The notes below the pieces were generated by a model. It was not told where the DNA came from. It made no database searches and saw nothing but the letters and a program-made list of their open reading frames with translations. Below, piece after piece: positions 2,178-39,466 of a stretch of 49,574 bases of DNA. Made by a program: the position numbers and the translations under genes. The stretch spans positions 1 to 49,574 of the IMG/VR virus record IMGVR_UViG_3300009702_000033, one strand, 5' to 3'. Numbering within the stretch: position 1 is the stretch's first letter; every line of letters starts with the position of its first letter. Source of the stretch: a virus.

Positions 2178-2391
2178 AAAAGTTCGAGTTAAGATTGAAA
2201 AAACTAAAAATCTTTCTCAAATTGAAGCAGAATCTCTTATTGTAAAAGCTTTAACATCTGATCCTCATAAAGATGAATTTATTGATAAAGGAAATCAACA
2301 CGCAGCTGAAGTATTAGAAAAAGCACATAAAAAAATATTTGATGAAATTATGAATGGTATTATGAATGAACTTGATAATGAGGAATTATAA
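2161..2391 (+). CDS. small hypothetical head-region protein
   Basis: A 76-residue charged protein lying between the portal and the head morphogenesis gene. It overlaps the portal end by 17 bases and its stop overlaps the next ATG by one base, which suggests translational coupling. I prefer ATG 2161 over TTG 2152 because AAGGA (2146-2150) is too close to the TTG. It looks mostly helical. No family recognised. Confidence 0.6.
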   Translation: MKSKNKKVRVKIEKTKNLSQIEAESLIVKALTSDPHKDEFIDKGNQHAAEVLEKAHKKIFDEIMNGIMNELDNEEL

Positions 2392-4322
2392 TGGCCGTTA
2401 TTAAAAATGATACAATTAATCGAATTCGTAATCTTATAGATAAAAAATATGCTAAATTATCTATTATGGTTCTTGGTCGTGAGAATGTAACTGAATCTCA
2501 AAGATCATTACAACCAAAAATGGACGGAGAACCTATTTTAGAAAAAGTTTATTATCATAATTATTTAAATGAAGAAAATGCTAAAGGGGCACCTAAAAAT
2601 GTTGCAGAGATGATTTCACAACAATCAATGGCAGGTGCATTGCCTTTAGGCGAAGCTCATACTATTTCAGTAAATTATCTAAATTCTAATCTTTTACAAC
2701 TAATAGAAAAGCATAAAGCTGAAGTAACTTCTCGACTCATTGGAATTATTAGAGATTCAAATAATCGTTATAAAAACAATGCTCTAACTGATCTTGATAG
2801 ACCAGAACAAATGGATTCTTTAGTTAAGCAATCAACTGTTCAACAATTAAAAAGAAAACTTAGAGATTATACTCATGATGCTAATAGAAATTGGAATAGA
2901 ATTGCTGTTACAGAAATATCGAATGCTGTAGGAATGGGGTCTGCCGATCATATTATTGCTCAAAATAAGGATAGTAAAGATGCTGAAGATATTTATACCT
3001 ACAGAATTAATCCTAATGATGGTGCAACATGTAAATATTGTAGAGCTTTTTATATAGATTTCGATGGTTCTCCAAAAGTATATAGAATGTCTACAATATT
3101 AAATAATGGTTCTAATTATGGAGTAAAAGCCCCCAGTTGGAAACCAGTTGCAGGAGCGACTCACCCCAATTGTTTTACCGAAAAAAATGTGAAAGTTTTA
3201 TCCAAAAACGGATGGAAATCTATGTGGAATTTGCATATAGGAGAAGAAGTACTAACTCACACTGGTAAATTTCGAAAAGTAACAGGAAAAATTGAAGCGG
3301 AATACAAAAATAAAGAAGCTTATGAAATTAAGTTTAATTACAATGATAGAACACAAAAAATAAGAGTGACTCCTGACCATAAGTTTTTAACCGATAAAGG
3401 TTGGGTTGAAGCTCAAAATTTATCTAAAAGAAATAAATTTATTAGATTAAAAGTACCATGTGCTGTTTGTGAAAAAGAAGTTAAATTTAAATCATCAAAA
3501 ACTTTTGATTTAGCTGCCACTTGTTCTAAGAATTGTTTTAAAAAATTAATGAAAAAACAAGCTTTAAAACAACATAGCACTATGTCCGAAGAAGATAAAC
3601 TTAAAAGAAATTCGGCTTGTTCCGATGGAACTAAAAAAGCTTATGATGAAGGTAGATTAGTTTCTCCATTTTCTGGAAATTACTGGACTAAAGAAAAACG
3701 AGAAGAACAAAGGTTTAAATTAAATTCTCGATTACCTGAAATGATGAAAAAATCAGCTGGAACTAGAATTTCTAAAAAACAAAAACTTGCTTTTGGTTGG
3801 CTTCTTAGTTTCTTTCCAAAAGATAAAATCGAATTAGAATACCAAGTAGGTAATTACTTTATAGATATTGCATTTCCAAATAAAAAAATAGCAGTTGAAA
3901 TTGATGGTATTTATCATGATGACGAAAGACGTAAAAAAGACAATGAAAGGGACCATTGGCTACAAAATCAAGGCTGGATAGTTCTCAGGTTTGGTTTCAA
4001 CTGTGAAAAAGAAGTTACTAAATCTAATATTTTAGAAGATTTATCTAGAATTATGTTTAATCATAATGAAAAATATGATTTTGAAGAAACTGAAATTATT
4101 TCTATAAGAAAAACAAGGACTTGTGATACTAACGGTAAAATTTACTGTATACAGGTAGATAAAGATGAATCTTTCATAACTAGGGGCATTGTTTCTCATA
4201 ATTGTAGAGACTCTCAGCTTATTGAATTAAAACCTGGCTGGAAAGTTCAATCAGGCGGTGCAGTTACTTGGATTGGTCTTGATAAATGGAAAGACTATAT
4301 TAAAGATAAAGTAACTGAATAA
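2391..4322 (+). CDS. minor head / morphogenesis protein (SPP1 gp7-like) interrupted by an intein
   Basis: The precursor is 643 residues; removing residues 261-604 leaves a 299-residue product of usual size. The host protein shows the gp7-like pattern: a helical region with TEISNAVGMGSADH (about 174-187), a CKYC pair (C214, C217) and the family's terminal HPNC-R motif, likely a zinc site. The intein begins at the Cys of that motif and the first residue after it is again Cys, so splicing regenerates HPNCRDSQ. In this family the protein helps portal incorporation and head assembly. Position directly after the portal supports the call. Confidence 0.85.
   Translation: MAVIKNDTINRIRNLIDKKYAKLSIMVLGRENVTESQRSLQPKMDGEPILEKVYYHNYLNEENAKGAPKNVAEMISQQSMAGALPLGEAHTISVNYLNSNLLQLIEKHKAEVTSRLIGIIRDSNNRYKNNALTDLDRPEQMDSLVKQSTVQQLKRKLRDYTHDANRNWNRIAVTEISNAVGMGSADHIIAQNKDSKDAEDIYTYRINPNDGATCKYCRAFYIDFDGSPKVYRMSTILNNGSNYGVKAPSWKPVAGATHPNCFTEKNVKVLSKNGWKSMWNLHIGEEVLTHTGKFRKVTGKIEAEYKNKEAYEIKFNYNDRTQKIRVTPDHKFLTDKGWVEAQNLSKRNKFIRLKVPCAVCEKEVKFKSSKTFDLAATCSKNCFKKLMKKQALKQHSTMSEEDKLKRNSACSDGTKKAYDEGRLVSPFSGNYWTKEKREEQRFKLNSRLPEMMKKSAGTRISKKQKLAFGWLLSFFPKDKIELEYQVGNYFIDIAFPNKKIAVEIDGIYHDDERRKKDNERDHWLQNQGWIVLRFGFNCEKEVTKSNILEDLSRIMFNHNEKYDFEETEIISIRKTRTCDTNGKIYCIQVDKDESFITRGIVSHNCRDSQLIELKPGWKVQSGGAVTWIGLDKWKDYIKDKVTE
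3171..4202 (+). mobile_element. intein with EDxHD (Vsr/DUF559-like) homing endonuclease domain
   Basis: Residues 261-604 of the precursor, 344 residues. Splicing block A begins at C261; block B is TPDH (327-330); block F contains YCIQVDKDESFITRG (585-599); block G ends in HN with Cys +1, so all class 1 intein residues are present. Between them lie a four-Cys knuckle (C357, C360, C378, C382), a basic linker and a nuclease core with strand-D-strand (YFIDIAF), then E503-x-D505 and H509-D510, the EDxHD arrangement. This is a homing intein inserted in an essential metal-binding motif of its host protein. It looks intact for both splicing and nuclease activity. Confidence 0.92.
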
Positions 4323-4351
4323 TTGACATATTTTACAGTTTTAGCTATAAT
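4323..4351 (+). promoter_or_regulatory. consensus sigma70 promoter, probably leaderless
   Basis: Perfect TTGACA (4323-4328), 17-base spacer and perfect TATAAT (4346-4351). The ATG of the next gene is at 4358, six bases after the -10 box, with no ribosome site between, so the transcript should begin at or beside the ATG. Confidence 0.85.
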
Positions 4352-4357
4352 TAAAAT

Positions 4358-4816
4358 ATGCCTAAAATTGATCTAAAAAAGCAATTTGCAACTAAATTAT
4401 TTGAATTACGAAAAAGCCAAAGACGATTTGAACTTATTTTAGAAATTGCTGAATATACTGAAGGCTTAAAAGATAAAGAATTTCCTGGACTTACTGAAGA
4501 AATCGCTAGTTTGTTTACGCAATTTGCTACTGGATTTTTAGAATCAAAAAATCCATTACAAGAAAATTTAATTAGAAACAATAGACAAACAAATAAAACT
4601 TTAAAAATTCAACCTAAAAATGATGATAACTCTATTTCAAATAAAGTTCAATTTATGCTTCAAAATAAACATTTTGAAAAGAAAGTAGTTCAATTTACTG
4701 TTAATAATGAAATATTGAGTGGACATGTTACAGGGGTTGATTCGCCATATATTATTTTTAAAACCGGAGATGGTAGAAGCATTAAAGCAAAACCAGAACA
4801 ATTAAAAATTATTTAA
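4358..4816 (+). CDS. hypothetical protein with possible Sm/Hfq-like C-terminal barrel
   Basis: 152 residues. The N-terminal 80 residues look helical. The C-terminal part (about 95-152) has five short alternating hydrophobic strands with spacing V-x-F-x-V-N...L-x-G-x-V...D...I-I-x-K...I...L-x-x-I, which resembles the small barrel of Sm-like or SH3-like proteins, including Hfq. That is a visual pattern match only. The gene has a consensus promoter and appears leaderless, a rare separate transcription start inside the head block. Function unknown; an RNA-binding role would be inference. Confidence 0.6.
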   Translation: MPKIDLKKQFATKLFELRKSQRRFELILEIAEYTEGLKDKEFPGLTEEIASLFTQFATGFLESKNPLQENLIRNNRQTNKTLKIQPKNDDNSISNKVQFMLQNKHFEKKVVQFTVNNEILSGHVTGVDSPYIIFKTGDGRSIKAKPEQLKII

Positions 4817-9116: not shown

Positions 9117-10007
9117 TTGCCCTCTAACGTGATAGAATTAAAGAAGTTTAAAGGTCGAGGAACGGAAGGAATTGGAAAAGGAGTTTTTCGACTTATGGAT
9201 ACTAAATTTAAAACAGTTTTACCTGTTGAATTTGAAAAGACTGAGAGTGGTGATTGGCGTGTATATGGCCTTGCATCTACTCCTAAATTAGATCAACAAG
9301 GTGAGATTGTAAACGTTCACGGCTTAGATCTTGCTCCTATTTCTCAAGGAAAAGGTATATTTAATTTTGACCATCAAAAAGGTCCTGAAAATACCGTCGG
9401 AATTATTGATACTTATCAAAAAGATGAAAATGGCCTTTATTTAGGCGGATATCTCTTCAAAAATCACGATAGAGCTAAATCGATTTATCAGATTATGAGT
9501 TCTTTAAAGAAAGAAGATCGCGGTCGAATGGGTATGTCAATTGAAGGTATTATAAAAAAACGTACTGGTAATGAAAGTAAAGTTATCGATAAAGCTGTAA
9601 TAACAGCTTGTGCATTAACTATGAATCCAGTAAATCAAGAAACTTATGTTGATTTAGCTAAATCTTTAGGTGCTGCTGAACAAATTGTATTTGATTTCGG
9701 TAACTTAGTGATCGATGAAAGTTTAATTAAAGCATTAGGTGTAGGTGCTGGATATGCAACAACTACTCCAAGTAATCTATCAGGTGGAGATGCTTTAGCT
9801 ACAGAAGAATTCGGTGATCGTAAAGAAAAAGATAAAAAGAAAAAGCGAAAATTGAAGAATTTGACAGCTCCTATGGCTAAAGGAATGATAATTGAGACAC
9901 TTGATAAACTTCAAGATCTTTATCCTAATCTTTCTCGACAAGTATTATGGGAATTGTTCAAAGAAAGATTAAACACAAAATTTCCTGAATTAAACTTAGG
10001 AAAATAA
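9117..10007 (+). CDS. prohead maturation protease (HK97/U35-like)
   Basis: 296 residues from TTG 9117; GTG 9129 or ATG 9195 are alternatives because no strong ribosome site decides the start. Protease core: VYGLASTPKLDQQGEIV (49-65), catalytic His candidate H86 in FNFDHQKG, Ser candidate S141 in GMSIEG, and the family's CALTMNPVN segment (165-173). It cleaves scaffold and capsid N-termini during head maturation. The C-terminal region (206-231) is strikingly similar to residues 26-51 of the capsid protein, followed by a lysine-rich segment. It is placed before scaffold and capsid genes as expected. Confidence 0.8.
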   Translation: MPSNVIELKKFKGRGTEGIGKGVFRLMDTKFKTVLPVEFEKTESGDWRVYGLASTPKLDQQGEIVNVHGLDLAPISQGKGIFNFDHQKGPENTVGIIDTYQKDENGLYLGGYLFKNHDRAKSIYQIMSSLKKEDRGRMGMSIEGIIKKRTGNESKVIDKAVITACALTMNPVNQETYVDLAKSLGAAEQIVFDFGNLVIDESLIKALGVGAGYATTTPSNLSGGDALATEEFGDRKEKDKKKKRKLKNLTAPMAKGMIIETLDKLQDLYPNLSRQVLWELFKERLNTKFPELNLGK

Positions 10008-12726: not shown

Positions 12727-12770
12727 TAATTCCAAAAACATAGACTAATAAAAAGTTTATGTATTTTTAG

Positions 12771-12804
12771 ACCCCTTGGGAGAAATTCCAAGGGGTTTTC
12801 TTTT
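12771..12804 (+). terminator. rho-independent terminator after the capsid gene
   Basis: CCCCTTGG (12772-12779) pairs with CCAAGGGG (12788-12795), followed by TTTTCTTTT. It closes the head operon. Positions 12805-12897 show no gene. Confidence 0.95.
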
Positions 12805-13484: not shown

Positions 13485-13513
13485 TTGACTAATATATAGT
13501 TTTCTACTATACT
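13485..13513 (+). promoter_or_regulatory. ATGGAGG promoter cassette, copy 1
   Basis: TTGACT (13485-13490), 17-base spacer, TATACT (13508-13513), six bases, then ATGGAGG at 13520. The predicted transcript begins at or near that ATG, so GGAGG lies at the very 5' end. Nearly the same sequence recurs at 13896. Confidence 0.85.
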
Positions 13514-13534
13514 TTAAGTATGGAGGGAAACAAT

Positions 13535-13750
13535 ATGTTTTTAGAACTAGTAAGTGGAAAAAGTTACACAAGTCAATTAGTTCAATCTTTCATGAATGGT
13601 TTATTGAGTGAAAAAGAAAGTCGAGCTTGGAGGAAGCGAAAAGATGGTCTTTTAGAAGATATCACAGGGAATGTATTTACCATTGATCTTAAAGTAACTG
13701 GTAATGAAGTTAAAGTTTATTTAAAACAAATTCAAATTCTAAATTTTTAA
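13535..13750 (+). CDS. small hypothetical protein
   Basis: 71 residues from ATG 13535, eight bases after GGAGG. The ATG at 13520 is in frame (MEGNNM...) and sits at the predicted transcript start, so a leaderless form five residues longer is possible. The protein has a short basic helix (ESRAWRKRKD) and C-terminal strands. No family recognised. Confidence 0.6.
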   Translation: MFLELVSGKSYTSQLVQSFMNGLLSEKESRAWRKRKDGLLEDITGNVFTIDLKVTGNEVKVYLKQIQILNF

Positions 13751-13759
13751 GGAGAAAAT

Positions 13760-13903
13760 ATGAATACTTATGATATTGAAATTAATTACCCAAATCGTTT
13801 AAAAATGTATGCTTTTAATCAGACTGAAGATCAATTAAAAGAATTAGATTCAGAAGATGTTGAAATTATTAAAATTATTAAATATAATAACCCTATTGAT
13901 TAA
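13760..13903 (+). CDS. very small hypothetical protein
   Basis: 47 residues, preceded by AAGGAG (13749-13754). Begins MNTYDIEINYPNRLKMYAF and ends in a helix-strand tail KIIKYNNPID. The stop overlaps the -35 box of the next promoter. Probably co-transcribed with the gene before it. No family recognised. Confidence 0.55.
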   Translation: MNTYDIEINYPNRLKMYAFNQTEDQLKELDSEDVEIIKIIKYNNPID

Positions 13904-13924
13904 TATATAGTTTTTTAGTATATT
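13896..13924 (+). promoter_or_regulatory. ATGGAGG promoter cassette, copy 2
   Basis: TTGATT (13896-13901), 17-base spacer, TATATT (13919-13924), six bases, then ATGGAGG at 13931. Spacer and flanks are nearly identical to copy 1, which suggests duplication. Confidence 0.8.
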
Positions 13925-13942
13925 TTAAGTATGGAGGCAATT

Positions 13943-14116
13943 ATGAAAGTGTTTTGTTTATATAATGATGGAGATCATATTGGATGCTTTAAAACTTATC
14001 AAGAAGCTTATTTAGAATTGAAAAAACGAAATTGTAGATATCTTGAAATTGTCGAGGAAGACTATTCCTCATCATGTAGTTGTGGAAATTATGCTATTGA
14101 CAAAACTGAAGTCTAG
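13943..14116 (+). CDS. small hypothetical protein with CxC
   Basis: 57 residues from ATG 13943; in-frame ATG 13931 (MEAIM...) at the predicted transcript start is the alternative. Contains KTYQEAYLELKKRN and a Cys pair in SSSCSCGNYAID. No family recognised. Confidence 0.6.
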   Translation: MKVFCLYNDGDHIGCFKTYQEAYLELKKRNCRYLEIVEEDYSSSCSCGNYAIDKTEV

Positions 14117-14125
14117 AAGTATAGT
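14097..14125 (+). promoter_or_regulatory. ATGGAGG promoter cassette, copy 3
   Basis: TTGACA (14097-14102, inside the end of the preceding gene), 17-base spacer, TATAGT (14120-14125), six bases, ATGGAGG at 14132. Confidence 0.8.
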
Positions 14126-14143
14126 AAAGATATGGAGGGATTT

Positions 14144-14314
14144 ATGAAAACAGGATATGACAAATCAATTAACTATGATTATGACTATCAATATGCCGCC
14201 GAATTTTTAGATGAACAATTAGGAAGAAATGCAACTGATGCTGAAATTCAAGAATTCATTGAAATTCAAGAAGCACGAATTCTCGATGCTTTTGAATATA
14301 CCGAAGAAAGATAA
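14144..14314 (+). CDS. small acidic hypothetical protein
   Basis: 56 residues from ATG 14144; ATG 14132 in frame (MEGFM...) is the leaderless alternative. Acidic and helical (AAEFLDEQLGRNATDAEIQE). No family recognised; small acidic phage proteins often bind host factors, but that is only a general expectation. Confidence 0.6.
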   Translation: MKTGYDKSINYDYDYQYAAEFLDEQLGRNATDAEIQEFIEIQEARILDAFEYTEER

Positions 14315-14323
14315 TAAAGAAAA

Positions 14324-14965
14324 ATGAAAGTTACAAATCTTAGAAAAGGTTTAATTCATATATTCTACAAAAATAATCGAGAATTGGCTAAAAATATTCT
14401 TAGATTCCAAGAACATTATGAATCACCTAATCAAGAATTTGTCGATCGACCATTTACTCTAGGTGAGTATCGTGAATGGTATAGAAAAAAATTTAATGCA
14501 TTTACTTATTATGATGATTGGGATGGTTTTAATATTCCAGGATATATATTTAATGATTTTAAAGACGGTTTATTTGATCCATTGACTAAAGGTGAACAAA
14601 ATATATTGGAAACTATTAAAGGAAGACGGAATAACTTTTATGTGATTGCAACTAGTTCAAATAGTCATCTTAATACAATGGATCATGAAATATGTCATGC
14701 TTTGTGGTATTTAGAACCTACTTACAAAAGAGCAACAATTCGATTAATTAATAAGTATCGAAATGAATTATCAAGTCTTTTTAAATTTTTAAAAGATAAT
14801 GGTTATAACGATCAAGTATTACTTGATGAAGCACATGCCTATTCAAGTGCTGATTATGAATGGCTAAAAAAGAAAAATATTCAAGTTCCTGAATTATTAC
14901 ATAATGAACTTCGAAATATTCTGAAAGGATTTAAATATGGAATTAATAAAAACAATATATTGTGA
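14324..14965 (+). CDS. HExxH protein, putative zinc peptidase-like
   Basis: 213 residues. H121-E-I-C-H125 in TMDHEICHALWYL is an HExxH zinc motif inside a helix, and DEAHAY near residue 170 could supply a third ligand. No signal peptide. The ribosome site is weak (AAAGAAA). The motif gives a zincin-like fold as the best guess; a peptidase role is not proven and the exact family is not recognised. It starts the run of tightly packed small genes that follows. Confidence 0.55.
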   Translation: MKVTNLRKGLIHIFYKNNRELAKNILRFQEHYESPNQEFVDRPFTLGEYREWYRKKFNAFTYYDDWDGFNIPGYIFNDFKDGLFDPLTKGEQNILETIKGRRNNFYVIATSSNSHLNTMDHEICHALWYLEPTYKRATIRLINKYRNELSSLFKFLKDNGYNDQVLLDEAHAYSSADYEWLKKKNIQVPELLHNELRNILKGFKYGINKNNIL

Positions 14966-15107
14966 TTGTGGAAATTATCATAAAATTTATGATTATGATA
15001 TTCCTGGCGAATTCCCATGCACATGTGGAAAAATAATTGACCCGGAAATTGAAGAAGAATATGATACAAGTTTAGGTTTTCCTAGACTAATAAAGGAAAC
15101 AAAATGA
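14937..15107 (+). CDS. small zinc-ribbon-like protein
   Basis: 56 residues, overlapping the previous gene by 29 bases and the next by four (ATGA). AAAGGA (14924-14929) precedes the ATG. Two Cys pairs, YCDCGN and FPCTCGK, separated by about 18 residues, look like a metal knuckle. Acidic tail. Confidence 0.65.
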   Translation: MELIKTIYCDCGNYHKIYDYDIPGEFPCTCGKIIDPEIEEEYDTSLGFPRLIKETK

Positions 15108-15325
15108 CTTCAATAAATTTTAAAACAAAAACAGGATATCAAAAAGATGGCATTGGAATTGATATTATTCCAATGATTGGAATGTATATGCTTTATGCAT
15201 ATAATGCTAACATTACTCATCAGGGAAGACCTAGTGATGAGCGACCTAATTATCGAAAAGTTGGACAATTTCCTACTAGAAAAGAAGCAGAGAAAGCTGT
15301 TCTAAGAATTATTAATGAGGTTTAA
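15104..15325 (+). CDS. small hypothetical protein
   Basis: 73 residues, start overlapping the previous stop as ATGA, with AAGGAAA upstream. Strand-rich with a C-terminal helix (RKEAEKAVLRIINEV), a double-stranded-RNA-binding-like or ferredoxin-like size but without a motif I can name. Confidence 0.6.
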   Translation: MTSINFKTKTGYQKDGIGIDIIPMIGMYMLYAYNANITHQGRPSDERPNYRKVGQFPTRKEAEKAVLRIINEV

Positions 15326-15404
15326 TCGAGAGTTTAGAGGAATAATTAAAGTTCAAATTACTGAAGTTGAAATTGCAGAAGAAGGAAAATTAAATGAACT
15401 GTAA
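15315..15404 (+). CDS. possible 29-residue peptide
   Basis: ATG 15315 overlaps the end of the previous gene and its stop overlaps the next start, filling the gap exactly (MRFNREFRGIIKVQITEVEI...). Codon choice is like neighbours. Its support is the overlap pattern only. Confidence 0.35.
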   Translation: MRFNREFRGIIKVQITEVEIAEEGKLNEL

Positions 15405-15603
15405 ATTTTGTAAGATAGATATGAAAAATATGCGTAGGACACAAATTTATATAGATCCTAATAATAAAAATAATAAATTTTGTTCATCTGAATGTTATAT
15501 ATCATTTGCTAATAGTAAAATAAGCGAAATTTTTCTACTTTATAATTCTAAAGGAGAAAAGAAAAGATTGGAAGAACTTAAGAAAGAAAGAGGATTTTTT
15601 TAA
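15394..15603 (+). CDS. small zinc-finger protein
   Basis: 69 residues; AGAAGGAAA precedes the ATG. Cys residues as MNCKFCKIDM and FCSSECYISFAN give CxxC...CxxxC, an FCS/MYM or HNH-like knuckle of the kind that often binds nucleic acid or protein. Lysine-rich C-terminal helix. Confidence 0.65.
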   Translation: MNCKFCKIDMKNMRRTQIYIDPNNKNNKFCSSECYISFANSKISEIFLLYNSKGEKKRLEELKKERGFF

Positions 15604-15632
15604 TTGACTAAAGTAGAGAATATTGGTATACT
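15604..15632 (+). promoter_or_regulatory. ATGGAGG promoter cassette, copy 4
   Basis: TTGACT (15604-15609), 17-base spacer, TATACT (15627-15632), six bases, ATGGAGG at 15639. Same geometry as the copies at 13485, 13896 and 14097. Confidence 0.85.
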
Positions 15633-15650
15633 TTATATATGGAGGATGTT

Positions 15651-15833
15651 ATGAAAGTGATTGATTTTAAATCTAAGAGATTCGAGAAACTCCAACGAGA
15701 AGCTAAAATTAATGATATTTACTGGCAAATGAAAATTGAAGAAATGAGTCGTCAAGTTGAACGATTATTCAGTGGATATTCTTGTAGTAGTATACAATCA
15801 ATGAAAGATGAAAATCATATAAAAGGAAATTGA
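15651..15833 (+). CDS. small hypothetical protein
   Basis: 60 residues from ATG 15651; in-frame ATG 15639 (MEDVM...) is the leaderless alternative. Basic N-terminus and one helix (WQMKIEEMSRQVERL). Ends in TGA overlapping a TTG of the next gene. No family recognised. Confidence 0.6.
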   Translation: MKVIDFKSKRFEKLQREAKINDIYWQMKIEEMSRQVERLFSGYSCSSIQSMKDENHIKGN

Positions 15834-15841
15834 GAAATATA

Positions 15842-16288
15842 ATGTATAAAGAAAAACGACATGATATTAGAATTCCTTTATTAAATGAAAGATTTTCTAT
15901 TAAAACAATAAGTCTTTTTAATAATCAAGATATTGAACCGCATTATTATCAAATTGCAGATATTTCAGAAAATGGAATATTCGTTAAAATTCAAAAAAAT
16001 GAAAAGAATTTTAAACCGCATCAATTAGTTAATGTATATATTACTCTTCCTGGAGATCTAGATCAATTAATATTGATGGGGCGCGTCTGTAGAGTAAACT
16101 GGGCAATAAGACCAAAAGTTAAAAATTATCAATTAGGATTTGCAGTTAAATTTGAACCAATGTCTTCAGGTTATAAAAAAATTTGGGATGCTTATAGAAT
16201 CTATTTAAGAAACAAACAAATAATTAATGTCTCAAAAAGAATTATTAGTGAATTCCTTGGTAATAAAACACCGGAAACTATAAAATGA
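15842..16288 (+). CDS. PilZ-domain protein, likely c-di-GMP binder
   Basis: 148 residues from ATG 15842; TTG 15830 in the same frame is an alternative start. Both PilZ signatures are present: R6-x3-R10 (KRHDIR) and D40-x-S42-x-x-G45 (ADISENG), followed by the expected strands (LILMGRVCRVNWAI, YQLGFAVKF). PilZ domains bind cyclic di-GMP in bacterial motility and surface-growth control. A phage copy could sense or intercept the host signal (inference). Overlaps the Rrf2-like gene by four bases (ATGA). Confidence 0.9.
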   Translation: MYKEKRHDIRIPLLNERFSIKTISLFNNQDIEPHYYQIADISENGIFVKIQKNEKNFKPHQLVNVYITLPGDLDQLILMGRVCRVNWAIRPKVKNYQLGFAVKFEPMSSGYKKIWDAYRIYLRNKQIINVSKRIISEFLGNKTPETIK

Positions 16289-24454: not shown

Positions 24455-24818
24455 GATTTTCTAAATCAGCAAAACTCATTTTACCTTCACCAATATCATC
24501 AACTTTAATTTCAATCTTTTTTACATCAATTTTAATTTGTAGAAGTTGCTCAAATTCTTTTAAATATTCTTCATCTTTTTCTATATCGAAATCTAATTTC
24601 CCATTTTTCTTAATTTTGAGCTTAGGCTTTTTATTCTTAAGTTTTTCAATATACTTTTTTCTTAATTCAAAATTGAGTTCTTGGAACTTCTTAAATTCTT
24701 CATCAACTTGAGCCATCAGAGTTTTAAGTTCCCAAGTTTTTTTTATAGGAAGATCTTGTTGAGCTAATTTACGAAATGCAGCAAAAAATCCAGGTTTTAA
24801 AAAATCTTTAATTTCCAT
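24429..24818 (-). CDS. hypothetical DUF1617-like protein on the minus strand
   Basis: 129 residues, lysine and glutamate rich: LAQQDLPIKKTWELKTLMAQ, long charged helix, and an end DIGEGKMSFADLENLKSLVNF, the layout I know from DUF1617 phage proteins. Transcribed opposite to its neighbours from its own leaderless-type promoter (24825-24853). Its 3' end overlaps the lipoprotein gene antisense. Confidence 0.6.
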   Translation of the reverse strand: MEIKDFLKPGFFAAFRKLAQQDLPIKKTWELKTLMAQVDEEFKKFQELNFELRKKYIEKLKNKKPKLKIKKNGKLDFDIEKDEEYLKEFEQLLQIKIDVKKIEIKVDDIGEGKMSFADLENLKSLVNFL

Positions 24819-24824
24819 ACTTTA

Positions 24825-24853
24825 ATTTTATTCAATTATTCAAATATTGTCAA
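24825..24853 (-). promoter_or_regulatory. minus-strand promoter, leaderless type
   Basis: On the minus strand: TTGACA (24853-24848), 17 bases, TAAAAT (24830-24825), six bases, ATG at 24818. No ribosome site. Same geometry as several plus-strand genes. Confidence 0.8.
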
Positions 24854-30000: not shown

Positions 30001-30029
30001 TTAAGATAATCTATAACTTGCGGTATAAT
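30001..30029 (+). promoter_or_regulatory. promoter, leaderless type
   Basis: TTAAGA (30001-30006), 17 bases, TATAAT (30024-30029), six bases, ATG 30036. No ribosome site before the ATG. Confidence 0.7.
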
Positions 30030-30035
30030 TAAGCA

Positions 30036-31799
30036 ATGGATATCAGAGAACAAATTGATAGCGAAATGGATGAAATGGCTGAGAAACTTGAAAAAGCTAT
30101 GAAGAAAACTTTAGATGACGAATCTGAAGATGGAAATGATCGTAGTGCGCCATATAAGTTAGATAATCCAGATGAAAGCAAGCCAAAGATTACACTTCCT
30201 GAGAGTGCTATTAAACATAAAAAGAAAGAAGAATCTCAAAAAAAGGAAACAAAAATGAATAAATCTGTAAATAACATGATTGCTGAGATTTTAGCTAAAG
30301 CAGAAGAATTGGGCAAAGAAGAGTTTAAAAAAGCTGTTTCTCAAATGACATCCAACCAACAAAGATTAATTGGTAAGATTCTTGAAAAGGCAGCACCTAA
30401 AGGTGTAGATGAAGCGAAATATAAACGCTGTAAAGAAGAAGTTGAAGCTAAACAAGGTAAAAAAGTTAATCCTTATGCTATTTGTGCAGCTTCACTTAAA
30501 AAGGGTGAAATGGAAGCTGCCGATAAAGAAGCTGAAAATCACAAAGATCTTTATCAGCATCTTCCTGAAAAATGGTCAGATGAAATGGAAAAAGGTTATG
30601 TTGGATTTAATAAGTTAGTCGGTAAACTTAAAAATAGAAAAGGCGTCAGCAACCCTAAAGCTGTAGCCGCTGCTATTGGTCGTAAAAAATATGGAAAACA
30701 AGCATTTCAACATGCTGCTGCTGAAGGAAAACATATGAAGAAATCAGAAGAATTAAATAAAGCATCTACATATGATGGTAATATTGAAGTTCCAGAACCT
30801 AAAAATGTTAAAGATCTTCCACAAAAAGATGTTAAACGCGGTAATCAATATGAATTGGGTGACCGAAACGATGAAGAAATAATGAAGGAAAAAGATAGTA
30901 CTGTTCGTCATCAAGGTGATAATAGTCCTGAAGGATTTGAAGGACAGGAAATTACAGACCCTAAACCACAACAAGATTTGGAGAAACAAACAATGAGAAA
31001 ATCAATGGATGAACTATTCGCAAGTGAAGAAGGAATTGAAAAACTAGTTAATCGAGCTTTCGAAAAAGGTCTTACTTCTGAAGAACTTCAAGAAAAAATT
31101 GAAAAAGCTGGTTATGCAAAAATGTGTAAAAAGTGTGGCGCTATGCTAGCAAAAAAGAAAATGATGAAAATGGGTGAATCCGAGATGATTGATGAAGACA
31201 AGAAAATGGATGAAGATAAGAAGATGAAGAAAATGGATGAATCCAAGAAAGACATCGATCCTAAGCCTGCTAGTAATGCGGATGATCCTGTAAATGATCC
31301 TAAGAAGACGAAAAAAATGAAAAAAGAAGAAGACAAATCTAAGAAAGACATCGATCCTAAACCGGCTACTGTAGCTGTTAATTCAATGAAGAAAATGGAA
31401 AAATCCGTTCAATGGAATGATTGGAATTCCGATGCTCTTGGTTCTTCTGCCAAACGAGGTCGCAATGCGCATTACAATGTAGTTGATACCATAGAAAAGG
31501 CTGAACAAATTAAAACTGAACGTCTTGAAAAAGGTGATTATCTTAATGTAGAATCTCAAGATGAGAAACTTGCTAAATCCGAAGGTGAAGCTAATAAAAC
31601 TGATTTGAATGATATTATCGAAAAAGGATTAGATCAATCTCAAGATGAAATTATTAACAAAGCAAGAATTGCATTCACTAAATCAAGTGGAGCATTTAAA
31701 GTTAATAGCTTTAAAGATGAAGATCTATTTAAATCTTTAAATTTGACATCCGATGAAGCTGCTAAAATTCTTGGAGAATCCAAAGAAGATTCTGAATAA
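30036..31799 (+). CDS. large charged virion-region protein
   Basis: 587 residues, very rich in Lys, Glu and Asp. Contains a globular-looking part (about 125-225: YKRCKEEVEAKQGKKVNPYA, KYGKQAFQHAAAE), a four-residue Cys pair MCKKCGAM near 365, and repeated SKKDIDPKPA blocks (near 408 and 437). Apparently leaderless from the promoter at 30001. Could be an internal head or connector-associated protein; no family recognised. Confidence 0.65.
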   Translation: MDIREQIDSEMDEMAEKLEKAMKKTLDDESEDGNDRSAPYKLDNPDESKPKITLPESAIKHKKKEESQKKETKMNKSVNNMIAEILAKAEELGKEEFKKAVSQMTSNQQRLIGKILEKAAPKGVDEAKYKRCKEEVEAKQGKKVNPYAICAASLKKGEMEAADKEAENHKDLYQHLPEKWSDEMEKGYVGFNKLVGKLKNRKGVSNPKAVAAAIGRKKYGKQAFQHAAAEGKHMKKSEELNKASTYDGNIEVPEPKNVKDLPQKDVKRGNQYELGDRNDEEIMKEKDSTVRHQGDNSPEGFEGQEITDPKPQQDLEKQTMRKSMDELFASEEGIEKLVNRAFEKGLTSEELQEKIEKAGYAKMCKKCGAMLAKKKMMKMGESEMIDEDKKMDEDKKMKKMDESKKDIDPKPASNADDPVNDPKKTKKMKKEEDKSKKDIDPKPATVAVNSMKKMEKSVQWNDWNSDALGSSAKRGRNAHYNVVDTIEKAEQIKTERLEKGDYLNVESQDEKLAKSEGEANKTDLNDIIEKGLDQSQDEIINKARIAFTKSSGAFKVNSFKDEDLFKSLNLTSDEAAKILGESKEDSE

Positions 31800-37428: not shown

Positions 37429-37458
37429 TGGGTCCGTTGGTTAACCCCTTCGGACCCA
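37429..37458. terminator. two-way terminator, overlaps end of homing endonuclease gene
   Basis: TGGGTCCG (37429-37436) pairs with CGGACCCA (37451-37458); loop of 14 bases; T-rich on the plus side and A/T on the minus side. It ends the sheath operon and the opposing endonuclease transcript, whose last codons lie in it. Confidence 0.8.
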
Positions 37459-38967
37459 TCTTCTTTTACCACAATCCCAAATTCGGTAAAGCCCATTCTT
37501 CCAACACCATTCCCATTCTTTTTCATTCTTAGGACAACCTGTTAGCGATTTTCGTTTGCTTTGTTTTGAGTAAGCATTTCCAGATGAATCACAATAGAAA
37601 TAATCAGGCTTAAGCTCTTCTTGTAGTTCAAATCCTGCATTCTTATACATATTACCGGATGGACTATATCTGTTATCAGACCATGTAATTAGATCGCCAG
37701 GAATCCGTTTTAAGAGCTTTTCTAGACCACCAACGATGTTGTAGTCGGAAAAACAAACTCTATTCAATACAGAGCATTCTGAGCCCTTTCTATGATGATT
37801 TCCAATAGATATCGCCATTACAATTTCGTTATTGTATTTAAGCCCTAAATAGGTATGACTAGGAGCACCGCCCTGTAAGTGATGTAGTTCTATGAACTGT
37901 CTTAAAAGAACTTTATCTTCTATAACCTTACATTTACGAGCATATATTCGTTGTTTTGGAGTGATAAGTTTTACAATAAATTTAGATAGACTGTCTCTGG
38001 CAAGTGACCATTCATGTTCCCAAATTGTATATAGATTAATACCTTGAGATAAACATTCCTTATGCTTCCAAGCGTGCTTTGTTTTATCATCAATAAAACG
38101 TTCAGAATGCCATATAAGACCGTTAAATTCAAATGCTATATTTAGTTCGGGTAGGTAAATATCAAGTTCTTTACCGTTAAGAATCTTTCTATCATTTTCA
38201 ATAATTTGCCCTGTATAATTTTGTCTAATTAATTCAACTATTTGCTTTTCTGGAATAGAATATTTAGTGTTTGTTCTAACTAAATCATCTCTATCAATAT
38301 GTATAAGAGCTTTAATTAATGTACTACCATCAGTGCCGAAGTGAGCTTCTATATCAGCATGATTTGCAAATAAGCCAGTTGTTTCAATTCTTTGTGCTAC
38401 TTTATTACAAAAGTCATCGTAACTTTTGCATTCGTTTCTCTTGAGTAATTTAGCTCGCAGGGGACTTCCATGTCCGTACTTTTTAATCATCTTATTGCTT
38501 AGATTAAGTTTTCTATTAGGTAATTGATTTATGTGGTCTACTCCGTATTTATCTCTGGTAGTATTAATAATCTTTTCTTTAACTGATTCAAGCCTAAATG
38601 GATTATCTGTTTGATATTTATCTTTAAAAGCTTTCCTAGCAACGCCTATTGAACCTTCTTTCCCGTATTTTTCGATACTAGTCTTTTTAGCTTTAGCTTT
38701 AATTACATTGGATTGCATTGGATTTTTAACGCCATATCTAGAAAGCATTGTTTTCTCGTATTTGTCTTTTGAATTCAATGCGCCTTTCCGTGCTGAACAT
38801 GAGAAACAAAGGTGAGTACCTTTCTTATTTACTTGCTTTTTTAAATTATTTAGAATAACAACACTTCGATATTCACACTCAGAACATATTGAAACTATTC
38901 TATCTCTGGTCTTTAGATTTTCAGGTTTAGCATTGAATTTTGGATCTAGATATTTTTTCCAACTCAT
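37441..38967 (-). CDS. freestanding homing endonuclease, Vsr-like nuclease with NUMOD-type repeats
   Basis: 508 residues from ATG 38967 (AAGGCGG upstream). N-terminal zinc-binding Cys (CSECEYRS, CFSCSARKG), then repeated KYGVKNPMQ and KYGVDHINQ modules used for DNA recognition, a nuclease core KELDIYLPELNIAFEFNG and LIWHSE, matching the EDxHD/Vsr-like fold of phage Hef-type enzymes, and a C-terminal domain (GGLEKLLKRIPGDLITWSDN). It lies opposite to the tail operon between sheath and the next gene, and has its own TATAAT box (minus strand, 38994-38989). Related in nuclease type to the intein at 3171. Confidence 0.88.
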   Translation of the reverse strand: MSWKKYLDPKFNAKPENLKTRDRIVSICSECEYRSVVILNNLKKQVNKKGTHLCFSCSARKGALNSKDKYEKTMLSRYGVKNPMQSNVIKAKAKKTSIEKYGKEGSIGVARKAFKDKYQTDNPFRLESVKEKIINTTRDKYGVDHINQLPNRKLNLSNKMIKKYGHGSPLRAKLLKRNECKSYDDFCNKVAQRIETTGLFANHADIEAHFGTDGSTLIKALIHIDRDDLVRTNTKYSIPEKQIVELIRQNYTGQIIENDRKILNGKELDIYLPELNIAFEFNGLIWHSERFIDDKTKHAWKHKECLSQGINLYTIWEHEWSLARDSLSKFIVKLITPKQRIYARKCKVIEDKVLLRQFIELHHLQGGAPSHTYLGLKYNNEIVMAISIGNHHRKGSECSVLNRVCFSDYNIVGGLEKLLKRIPGDLITWSDNRYSPSGNMYKNAGFELQEELKPDYFYCDSSGNAYSKQSKRKSLTGCPKNEKEWEWCWKNGLYRIWDCGKRRWVRRG

Positions 38968-38988
38968 AATTTTCCGCCTTGTACTGAT

Positions 38989-38994
38989 ATTATA
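38989..38994 (-). promoter_or_regulatory. -10 box of the homing endonuclease gene
   Basis: TATAAT on the minus strand, about 22 bases before the ATG. The -35 region is weak. Confidence 0.5.
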
Positions 38995-39028
38995 GCACAA
39001 TAATTAAATTATAATCAAGTAATATTGA

Positions 39029-39034
39029 TACAAT
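39029..39034 (+). promoter_or_regulatory. -10 box, leaderless type
   Basis: TACAAT exactly six bases before ATG 39041, with no ribosome site. The -35 is unclear. Confidence 0.5.
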
Positions 39035-39040
39035 TAAGTA

Positions 39041-39466
39041 ATGAATAAAGACCAGATAAACATTATGCAAGCTCGACAAGAGCAAATGGAAAAGTCTCAA
39101 CAAGTTTTTCATATGATGAAACCTTATCTTGAACAAGAACTTCAAAATCGCTTAATGAGTAAATCAATCATAAAAGTTGCTAGACCTATTAGATTAATTG
39201 TTGAAAGAATTAGTAAATCTGCAACAGGCGGCCATTGTGGTTTTGGACAAGATATTATTCCAGCTGGTAGTGAATTAACATATGAAGGACAGGAATTGAG
39301 TCAATTATATTTTTCTGATCAAAATGGCAAAGAATATGCTGTTCATACAGGGATGCAATTAGATGTAGGGCAACCCATGGCTGTTAATAATAGTGGTTAT
39401 ATTGGTCTTTTGACTTCAACCGATATTTTTACAAGTGTAAAAGAACAAATTTTAACTCAAAACTAA
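39041..39466 (+). CDS. hypothetical tail-region protein
   Basis: 141 residues. Helical first half (MNKDQINIMQARQEQMEKSQ), beta-rich second half with a GGHCGFGQDIIPAGSELTY segment. Between sheath and tube, separated from the sheath by the inserted endonuclease. Possibly leaderless. Function unknown. Confidence 0.65.
   Translation: MNKDQINIMQARQEQMEKSQQVFHMMKPYLEQELQNRLMSKSIIKVARPIRLIVERISKSATGGHCGFGQDIIPAGSELTYEGQELSQLYFSDQNGKEYAVHTGMQLDVGQPMAVNNSGYIGLLTSTDIFTSVKEQILTQN

Follow-up and report, generated by a model that had tools for sequence, protein, structure and literature searches.

Whether a start codon at the extreme 5' end of an mRNA and a Shine-Dalgarno-led start codon can be combined in a single short leader is a question raised by IMG/VR virus record IMGVR_UViG_3300009702_000033, the whole of which (49,574 bases, 31% guanine plus cytosine (GC)) forms the window analysed here. 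At four places in this phage sequence, a sigma-70-type promoter is followed at a fixed distance by ATGGAGG and, a few bases further on, by a second ATG. From the geometry of the promoter, the transcript would begin on the first ATG (AUG1), which leads directly into the ribosome site of the second (AUG2). An earlier note on the sequence had described these cassettes as a possible source of two products or as a compact, strong early-gene start.

Layout and recurrence of the cassettes

The cassettes are exact pattern matches at 13485, 13896, 14097 and 15604, all on the plus strand, and the 17-bp spacer, the 6-bp gap and the in-frame ATGs are all present as previously described. Cassette 1 (13485..13526, TTGACT-17-TATACT-6-ATGGAGG) opens an open reading frame (ORF) of 76 aa from AUG1 (13520..13750, MEGNNM), with AUG2 at 13535, 8 bp after the GGAGG. 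In the other three copies this distance is 5 bp. Cassette 2 (13896..13937, TTGATT-17-TATATT-6-ATGGAGG) precedes an ORF of 61 aa (13931..14116, MEAIM, AUG2 at 13943) and cassette 3 (14097..14138, TTGACA-17-TATAGT-6-ATGGAGG), which overlaps the end of the preceding ORF, one of 60 aa (14132..14314, MEGFM, AUG2 at 14144). Cassette 4 (15604..15645, TTGACT-17-TATACT-6-ATGGAGG) leads into an ORF of 64 aa (15639..15833, MEDVM, AUG2 at 15651). The interval given earlier as four to eight bases is in fact either 5 or 8. From AUG1 to AUG2 the leader is 15 nt in copy 1 and 12 nt in copies 2-4, and there is no stop codon between the two AUGs in any of the four. The exact TTWAAGTATGGAGG version had no match in IMG/VR.

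Copies 1 and 2 had been thought duplicated on account of a shared spacer and, judged by sequence identity, they are a duplication: 38 of 42 positions are identical (15 of 17 in the spacer), compared with 27-31 of 42 for the remaining pairs. Their downstream spacing differs by a net 3 nt (8 vs 5), with the frame kept. The window holds four cassettes and 60 dinucleotide-type shuffles held none. The window has 18 near-consensus promoters with a 17-bp spacer, and after six of them an ORF of 50 aa or more has its ATG at a distance of exactly 6 bp, compared with a maximum of two at any other distance; no shuffle placed an ORF start 6 bp from a near-consensus promoter. The four-cassette feature is real and non-random.

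The genes concerned are small ORFs between the capsid gene and the tail genes, in a block that is set apart by an intrinsic terminator after the major capsid gene (12769..12798, plus strand; a 13-pair stem, then a T run) and that ends at a PilZ-domain gene (15830-16288). This position does not establish the early-gene role suggested for them. Searches of Pfam, PHROGs and NCBIfam with the four cassette proteins returned no useful match, so that gene function gives no help. The PilZ-domain gene, with possible binding of cyclic di-GMP (c-di-GMP), lies next after the ORF of cassette 4, within the structural region, and is conserved and syntenic in the related contig L137.

Each copy can be read as a compact host-type (sigma-70/sigma-A-like) promoter, with a predicted transcript start at the A of AUGGAGG. 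The earlier proposal of such a 5' end is partly supported, in that it fits both the promoter geometry and the genes of identical spacing without a Shine-Dalgarno site that are described below. The mRNA would open 5'-AUGGAGG-N5/8-AUG, in which the 12- or 15-nt leader supplies an AUG and a Shine-Dalgarno core ahead of the second in-frame AUG. Ribosomes starting at AUG1 would do so in the leaderless mode and make a protein 4 or 5 residues longer, those starting at AUG2 would use the Shine-Dalgarno mode, and the dominant product would be expected from AUG2. With both AUGs in one frame, the protein body would be the same from either start, and a ribosome bound at AUG1 would not be wasted. The small genes that follow the capsid terminator would be driven by the cassettes, which have spread by duplication at least once (copies 1 and 2). 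The reading of the cassette as an AUG in the leaderless position, joined to a Shine-Dalgarno site and a further in-frame AUG, with both start modes usable, is about evenly balanced between right and wrong; two products from the cassettes are possible.

Leaderless-type starts in the window and its relatives

The 6-bp geometry also occurs at gene starts outside the cassettes, which the earlier note overlooked. With the -35 element ignored, a -10 hexamer is placed 6 bp upstream of the ATG at 9-10 ORF starts (at least 50 aa), compared with 0-3 at other distances, and non-cassette starts of this kind without a Shine-Dalgarno site number at least four: ATG 4358, 24818 (minus strand), 30036 and 39041. 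The first (4323..4360, plus strand) has a perfect promoter, TTGACA-17-TATAAT-6-ATG, and is supported by orthologue N-termini (MSKID or similar); in L137, the nearest relative, the arrangement is kept as TTGACA-17-TACGCT-6-ATG. At 24818 (24816..24853, minus strand), TTGACA-17-TAAAAT-6-ATG has a cassette-like flank, TTAAAGTATGGA; the alignment with the L138 orthologue, which is Shine-Dalgarno-led, begins at residue 1, and the phrog_1401 offset agrees. The sequence at 30036 (30001..30038, plus strand) reads TTAAGA-17-TATAAT-6-ATG, and its orthologues in L138 and L141 are Shine-Dalgarno-led. A further possible case is 39041 (39026..39043, plus strand), where an extended -10 (TG-A-TACAAT) lies 6 bp before the ATG, with no -35 match. 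The ATGs at 4358 and 24818 appear to be genuine start codons, and the case for 30036 and 39041 is weaker; ATG 17395 has a -10 at 6 bp but a poor -35, and is probably due to chance. The geometry at 4358, 24818, 30036 and 39041 is that of leaderless mRNA, with the 5' end predicted on the start codon. Since the orthologues of 24818 and 30036 are Shine-Dalgarno-led, the comparison indicates that these genes have lost or gained a leader.

The closer relatives of the phage are uncultured contigs (56-77% identity in the capsid, 44-51% in the portal), which were found via the portal and a capsid alignment; with a single capsid protein as query they were not found. Gene order is common to the window and G001/L137-L138. 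Among the capsid-bearing relatives, a -10 lies 6 bp before 17 of 592 ORF starts, compared with 0-9 at other distances. Orthologues of the gene at 9117-10007 have TATAAT or TAAAAT 6 bp before the ATG in L142, L150, L153, L157, L167, L168 and L169, which suggests that a structural-region gene is expressed leaderless in several relatives. In the window itself, GGAG precedes ATG 9195 of this gene, and homology suggests that this codon, not the listed TTG 9117, is the true start. In the five nearest whole records, TTGANN-17-TANNNT-6-ATG gave four matches, mostly unconvincing by eye, one of them being the start of the 4358 orthologue. Plain AUG starts at the predicted +1 occur both in the phage and in its clade, which makes initiation on 5'-terminal AUGs very probable in the host.

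Frame between the two start codons in other viruses

Further copies had been called for as a check on the cassette, and three pattern scans of IMG/VR found it in more than 300 viral DNA stretches, a lower bound. The frame between ATGGAGG and the next start was scored by contig GC among the matches listed. It was shared in 17 of 57 cassettes below 40% GC (15.2 of 45 with protein clusters counted once), 15 of 71 at 40-50% (14.2 of 54), 26 of 40 at 50-55% (21.5 of 35) and 28 of 31 at 55% or above (26.5 of 29). In this last class, the control AVGGAGG at the same promoter position was in frame in 10 of 21 cases (p about 0.001), and other GGAGG starts in the same DNA in 61 of 162 (p about 5e-8). High-GC phages therefore keep AUG1 in frame, low-GC phages taken together do not, and the frame rule is real in some phage groups but not universal, high GC being only a stand-in for host type. 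That the comparison should support selection on frame in some phages and give no support for it in others was unexpected. No close annotated phage was found for the high-GC cassette contigs.

The same survey bears on the idea that AUG1 is the sole start, the genes being plainly leaderless, with GGAGG falling within codons 2-3 and AUG2 an internal methionine. The spacing does equal that of the leaderless-type genes at 4358, 24818 and 30036, but each of the four window copies carries the complete GGAGG, followed 5-8 bp later by a second ATG. Moreover, 27 high-GC cassettes have a second in-frame start at ribosome-site spacing and only five are leaderless-like without one, where about a tenth with such a start would be expected by estimate for random leaderless genes. 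This explanation is considered unlikely.

Several observations weigh against a cassette in which both starts are used. On contigs below 50% GC, 32 of 128 (25%) cassettes are in frame, compared with 77 of 324 in the control, which is chance level, and the window, at 31% GC, falls in this class without frame preference. The shared frame of AUG1 and AUG2 in the window copies, taken alone, is weak evidence: three of the four have one common spacing (5 bp) and two are duplicates, so that four in-frame copies are worth much less than four independent events. In L137, the promoter of the matching small-ORF block reads TTGACT-16-TATACT-6-AGGAGG-6-ATG, with no AUG at +1. Another phage, G017 (L065; IMGVR_UViG_3300005683_000050; 150 kb, 46% GC at the examined locus), has an ATG at +1 in 29 promoters (0 in the reversed control), but none of its three ATGGAGG cassettes is in frame, and an ATGA overlap closes two of the three. 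The model itself is built on sequence geometry and predicted 5' ends.

The main rival explanation is an ultra-short ordinary leader, in which transcription would start at or near the A, GGAGG would serve AUG2, and AUG1 would be incidental (a +1 purine and a T beside the Shine-Dalgarno core) and unused. It accords with the disregard for frame in low-GC viral cassettes, whose commonest spacing, 7 bp, is out of frame, and with L137 (14676) and L157 (14367), where the compact layout recurs with AGGAGG but without an AUG at +1. The AAGGAGA/GGAGG leaders that run from +1 beside leaderless genes in G017 also agree with it. It leaves unexplained the leaderless-type genes of the same geometry in the phage and the strong in-frame bias of high-GC phages, as well as the restriction of AT before GGAGG to promoter-linked gene starts in the window (4 of 4, compared with 0 of 5 other gene-start GGAGG sites). 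An unused AUG1 is a substantial possibility, though on balance doubted.

G017 carries dozens of TTGACAAA promoters (for example in L502 and L503); apart from the 29 with an ATG at +1, others have a Shine-Dalgarno site at or near +1. The two start modes thus occur side by side, and most of the +1-ATG promoters apparently serve leaderless genes. A rule by which every phage rich in leaderless genes keeps the two AUGs in frame was considered and fails for this phage. With G017 left out, extra +1-ATG promoters numbered 41 in 2.45 Mb of in-frame contigs and 8 in 1.15 Mb of out-of-frame contigs; adding G017 reverses the contrast.

Place among phages and known start signals

Portal, head protease, major capsid, tail sheath and related genes are present in the window, and tRNA genes are absent from its 49,574 bases. 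The window's capsid and sheath share about 25-30% identity with proteins of SPO1-like phages and other myoviruses; the capsid matches at about 30% identity include both SPO1-like and Bacteroides phages, and no host assignment follows. A DNA search of annotated phages with the cassette region found no relatives. A related phage region (L178) lies on a 100-kb contig binned as a Candidatus Omnitrophota metagenome-assembled genome, which is a weak host lead and possibly contamination. At 2391-4322, a head-region protein of 643 aa contains an intein at about residues 261-604 (Pfam Intein_splicing, intein_Cterm), bearing a DUF559/MTES_1575-like nuclease domain; the closest relatives are without most of this stretch. 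A long ORF resembling PHROGs homing endonucleases (37441-39000, minus strand) runs opposite to its neighbours and is preceded by a TTGATT-18-TATAAT promoter.

Among known systems, AUGs at the 5' terminus of E. coli mRNAs ahead of Shine-Dalgarno starts bind 70S ribosomes, are translatable and can affect the downstream gene, according to Beck, Fleming and Janssen (2016, PMC4965119). The cassettes share this order, with a predicted 5'-end AUG followed by a Shine-Dalgarno site and gene start (GGAGG, then ATG at 5, 5, 5 and 8 bp). The published E. coli cases have two ORFs in different frames or an upstream ORF (uORF) that ends before the gene, whereas the AUGs of the cassettes are in frame without a stop in all four copies, which makes the cassettes a variant and not the published type. 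The E. coli ptrB leader is longer, at 26 nt; in the cassettes the AUG abuts GGAGG and the gene starts 12-15 nt on. The arrangement also differs in being repeated, as a promoter cassette, at four places in a single phage.

For ptrB, mutation of the 5'-terminal upstream AUG lowered downstream expression to less than 8%, reportedly independently of uORF translation (PMC4965119). A standby role proposed for that gene would, in the cassettes, have 70S ribosomes land on AUG1 and relocate to AUG2, with AUG1 untranslated. Such a role would not need a shared frame, yet the frame is shared in high-GC phages and in the window, and a separation of 12 nt would be too short for two separately bound ribosomes. 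Standby is therefore regarded as very improbable.

A second known type is that of leaderless mRNA genes, for example in mycobacteria (PMC4633059) and Deinococcus-Thermus (PMC12340547), in which a -10 lies about 6 bp before the ATG and the predicted +1 falls on the start codon. Several window genes fit this type directly; in the cassettes, a Shine-Dalgarno core and another AUG in the same frame come on top of it. As repeated modules of promoter and ribosome site scattered before phage genes, they resemble the start-associated sequences (SAS/ESAS) of cluster K mycobacteriophages (PMC3203893, PMC11373665). The cluster K SAS is the 13-bp GGGATAGGAGCCC, half of the copies having upstream inverted repeats, and its descriptions mention no in-frame AUG at the predicted +1; this 13-bp sequence is absent from the cassettes. 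A literature text search for AUGGAGG found no paper on such a cassette by titles and abstracts, with incomplete coverage. Leaderless mRNA and the 5'-terminal upstream AUGs of E. coli are precedents for the in-frame AUG-Shine-Dalgarno-AUG cassette.

It is tentatively proposed that the cassette may be a hybrid start signal of its own kind, used by phages whose hosts are efficient at initiating on 5'-terminal AUGs, and that selection for a shared frame would bring leaderless and Shine-Dalgarno initiation to one gene, with two N-terminal isoforms. If AUG1 is used, one short leader would serve both bacterial initiation routes, and the annotated start codons of many phage genes would be 4-5 residues off. 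The in-frame bias of high-GC phages and its absence at low GC may provide a readout, from sequence only, of the capacity of the host to translate leaderless mRNA, which could help to assign hosts to uncultured phages. The cassettes themselves are also a small, naturally occurring system in which to test how leaderless and Shine-Dalgarno initiation compete on a single mRNA.

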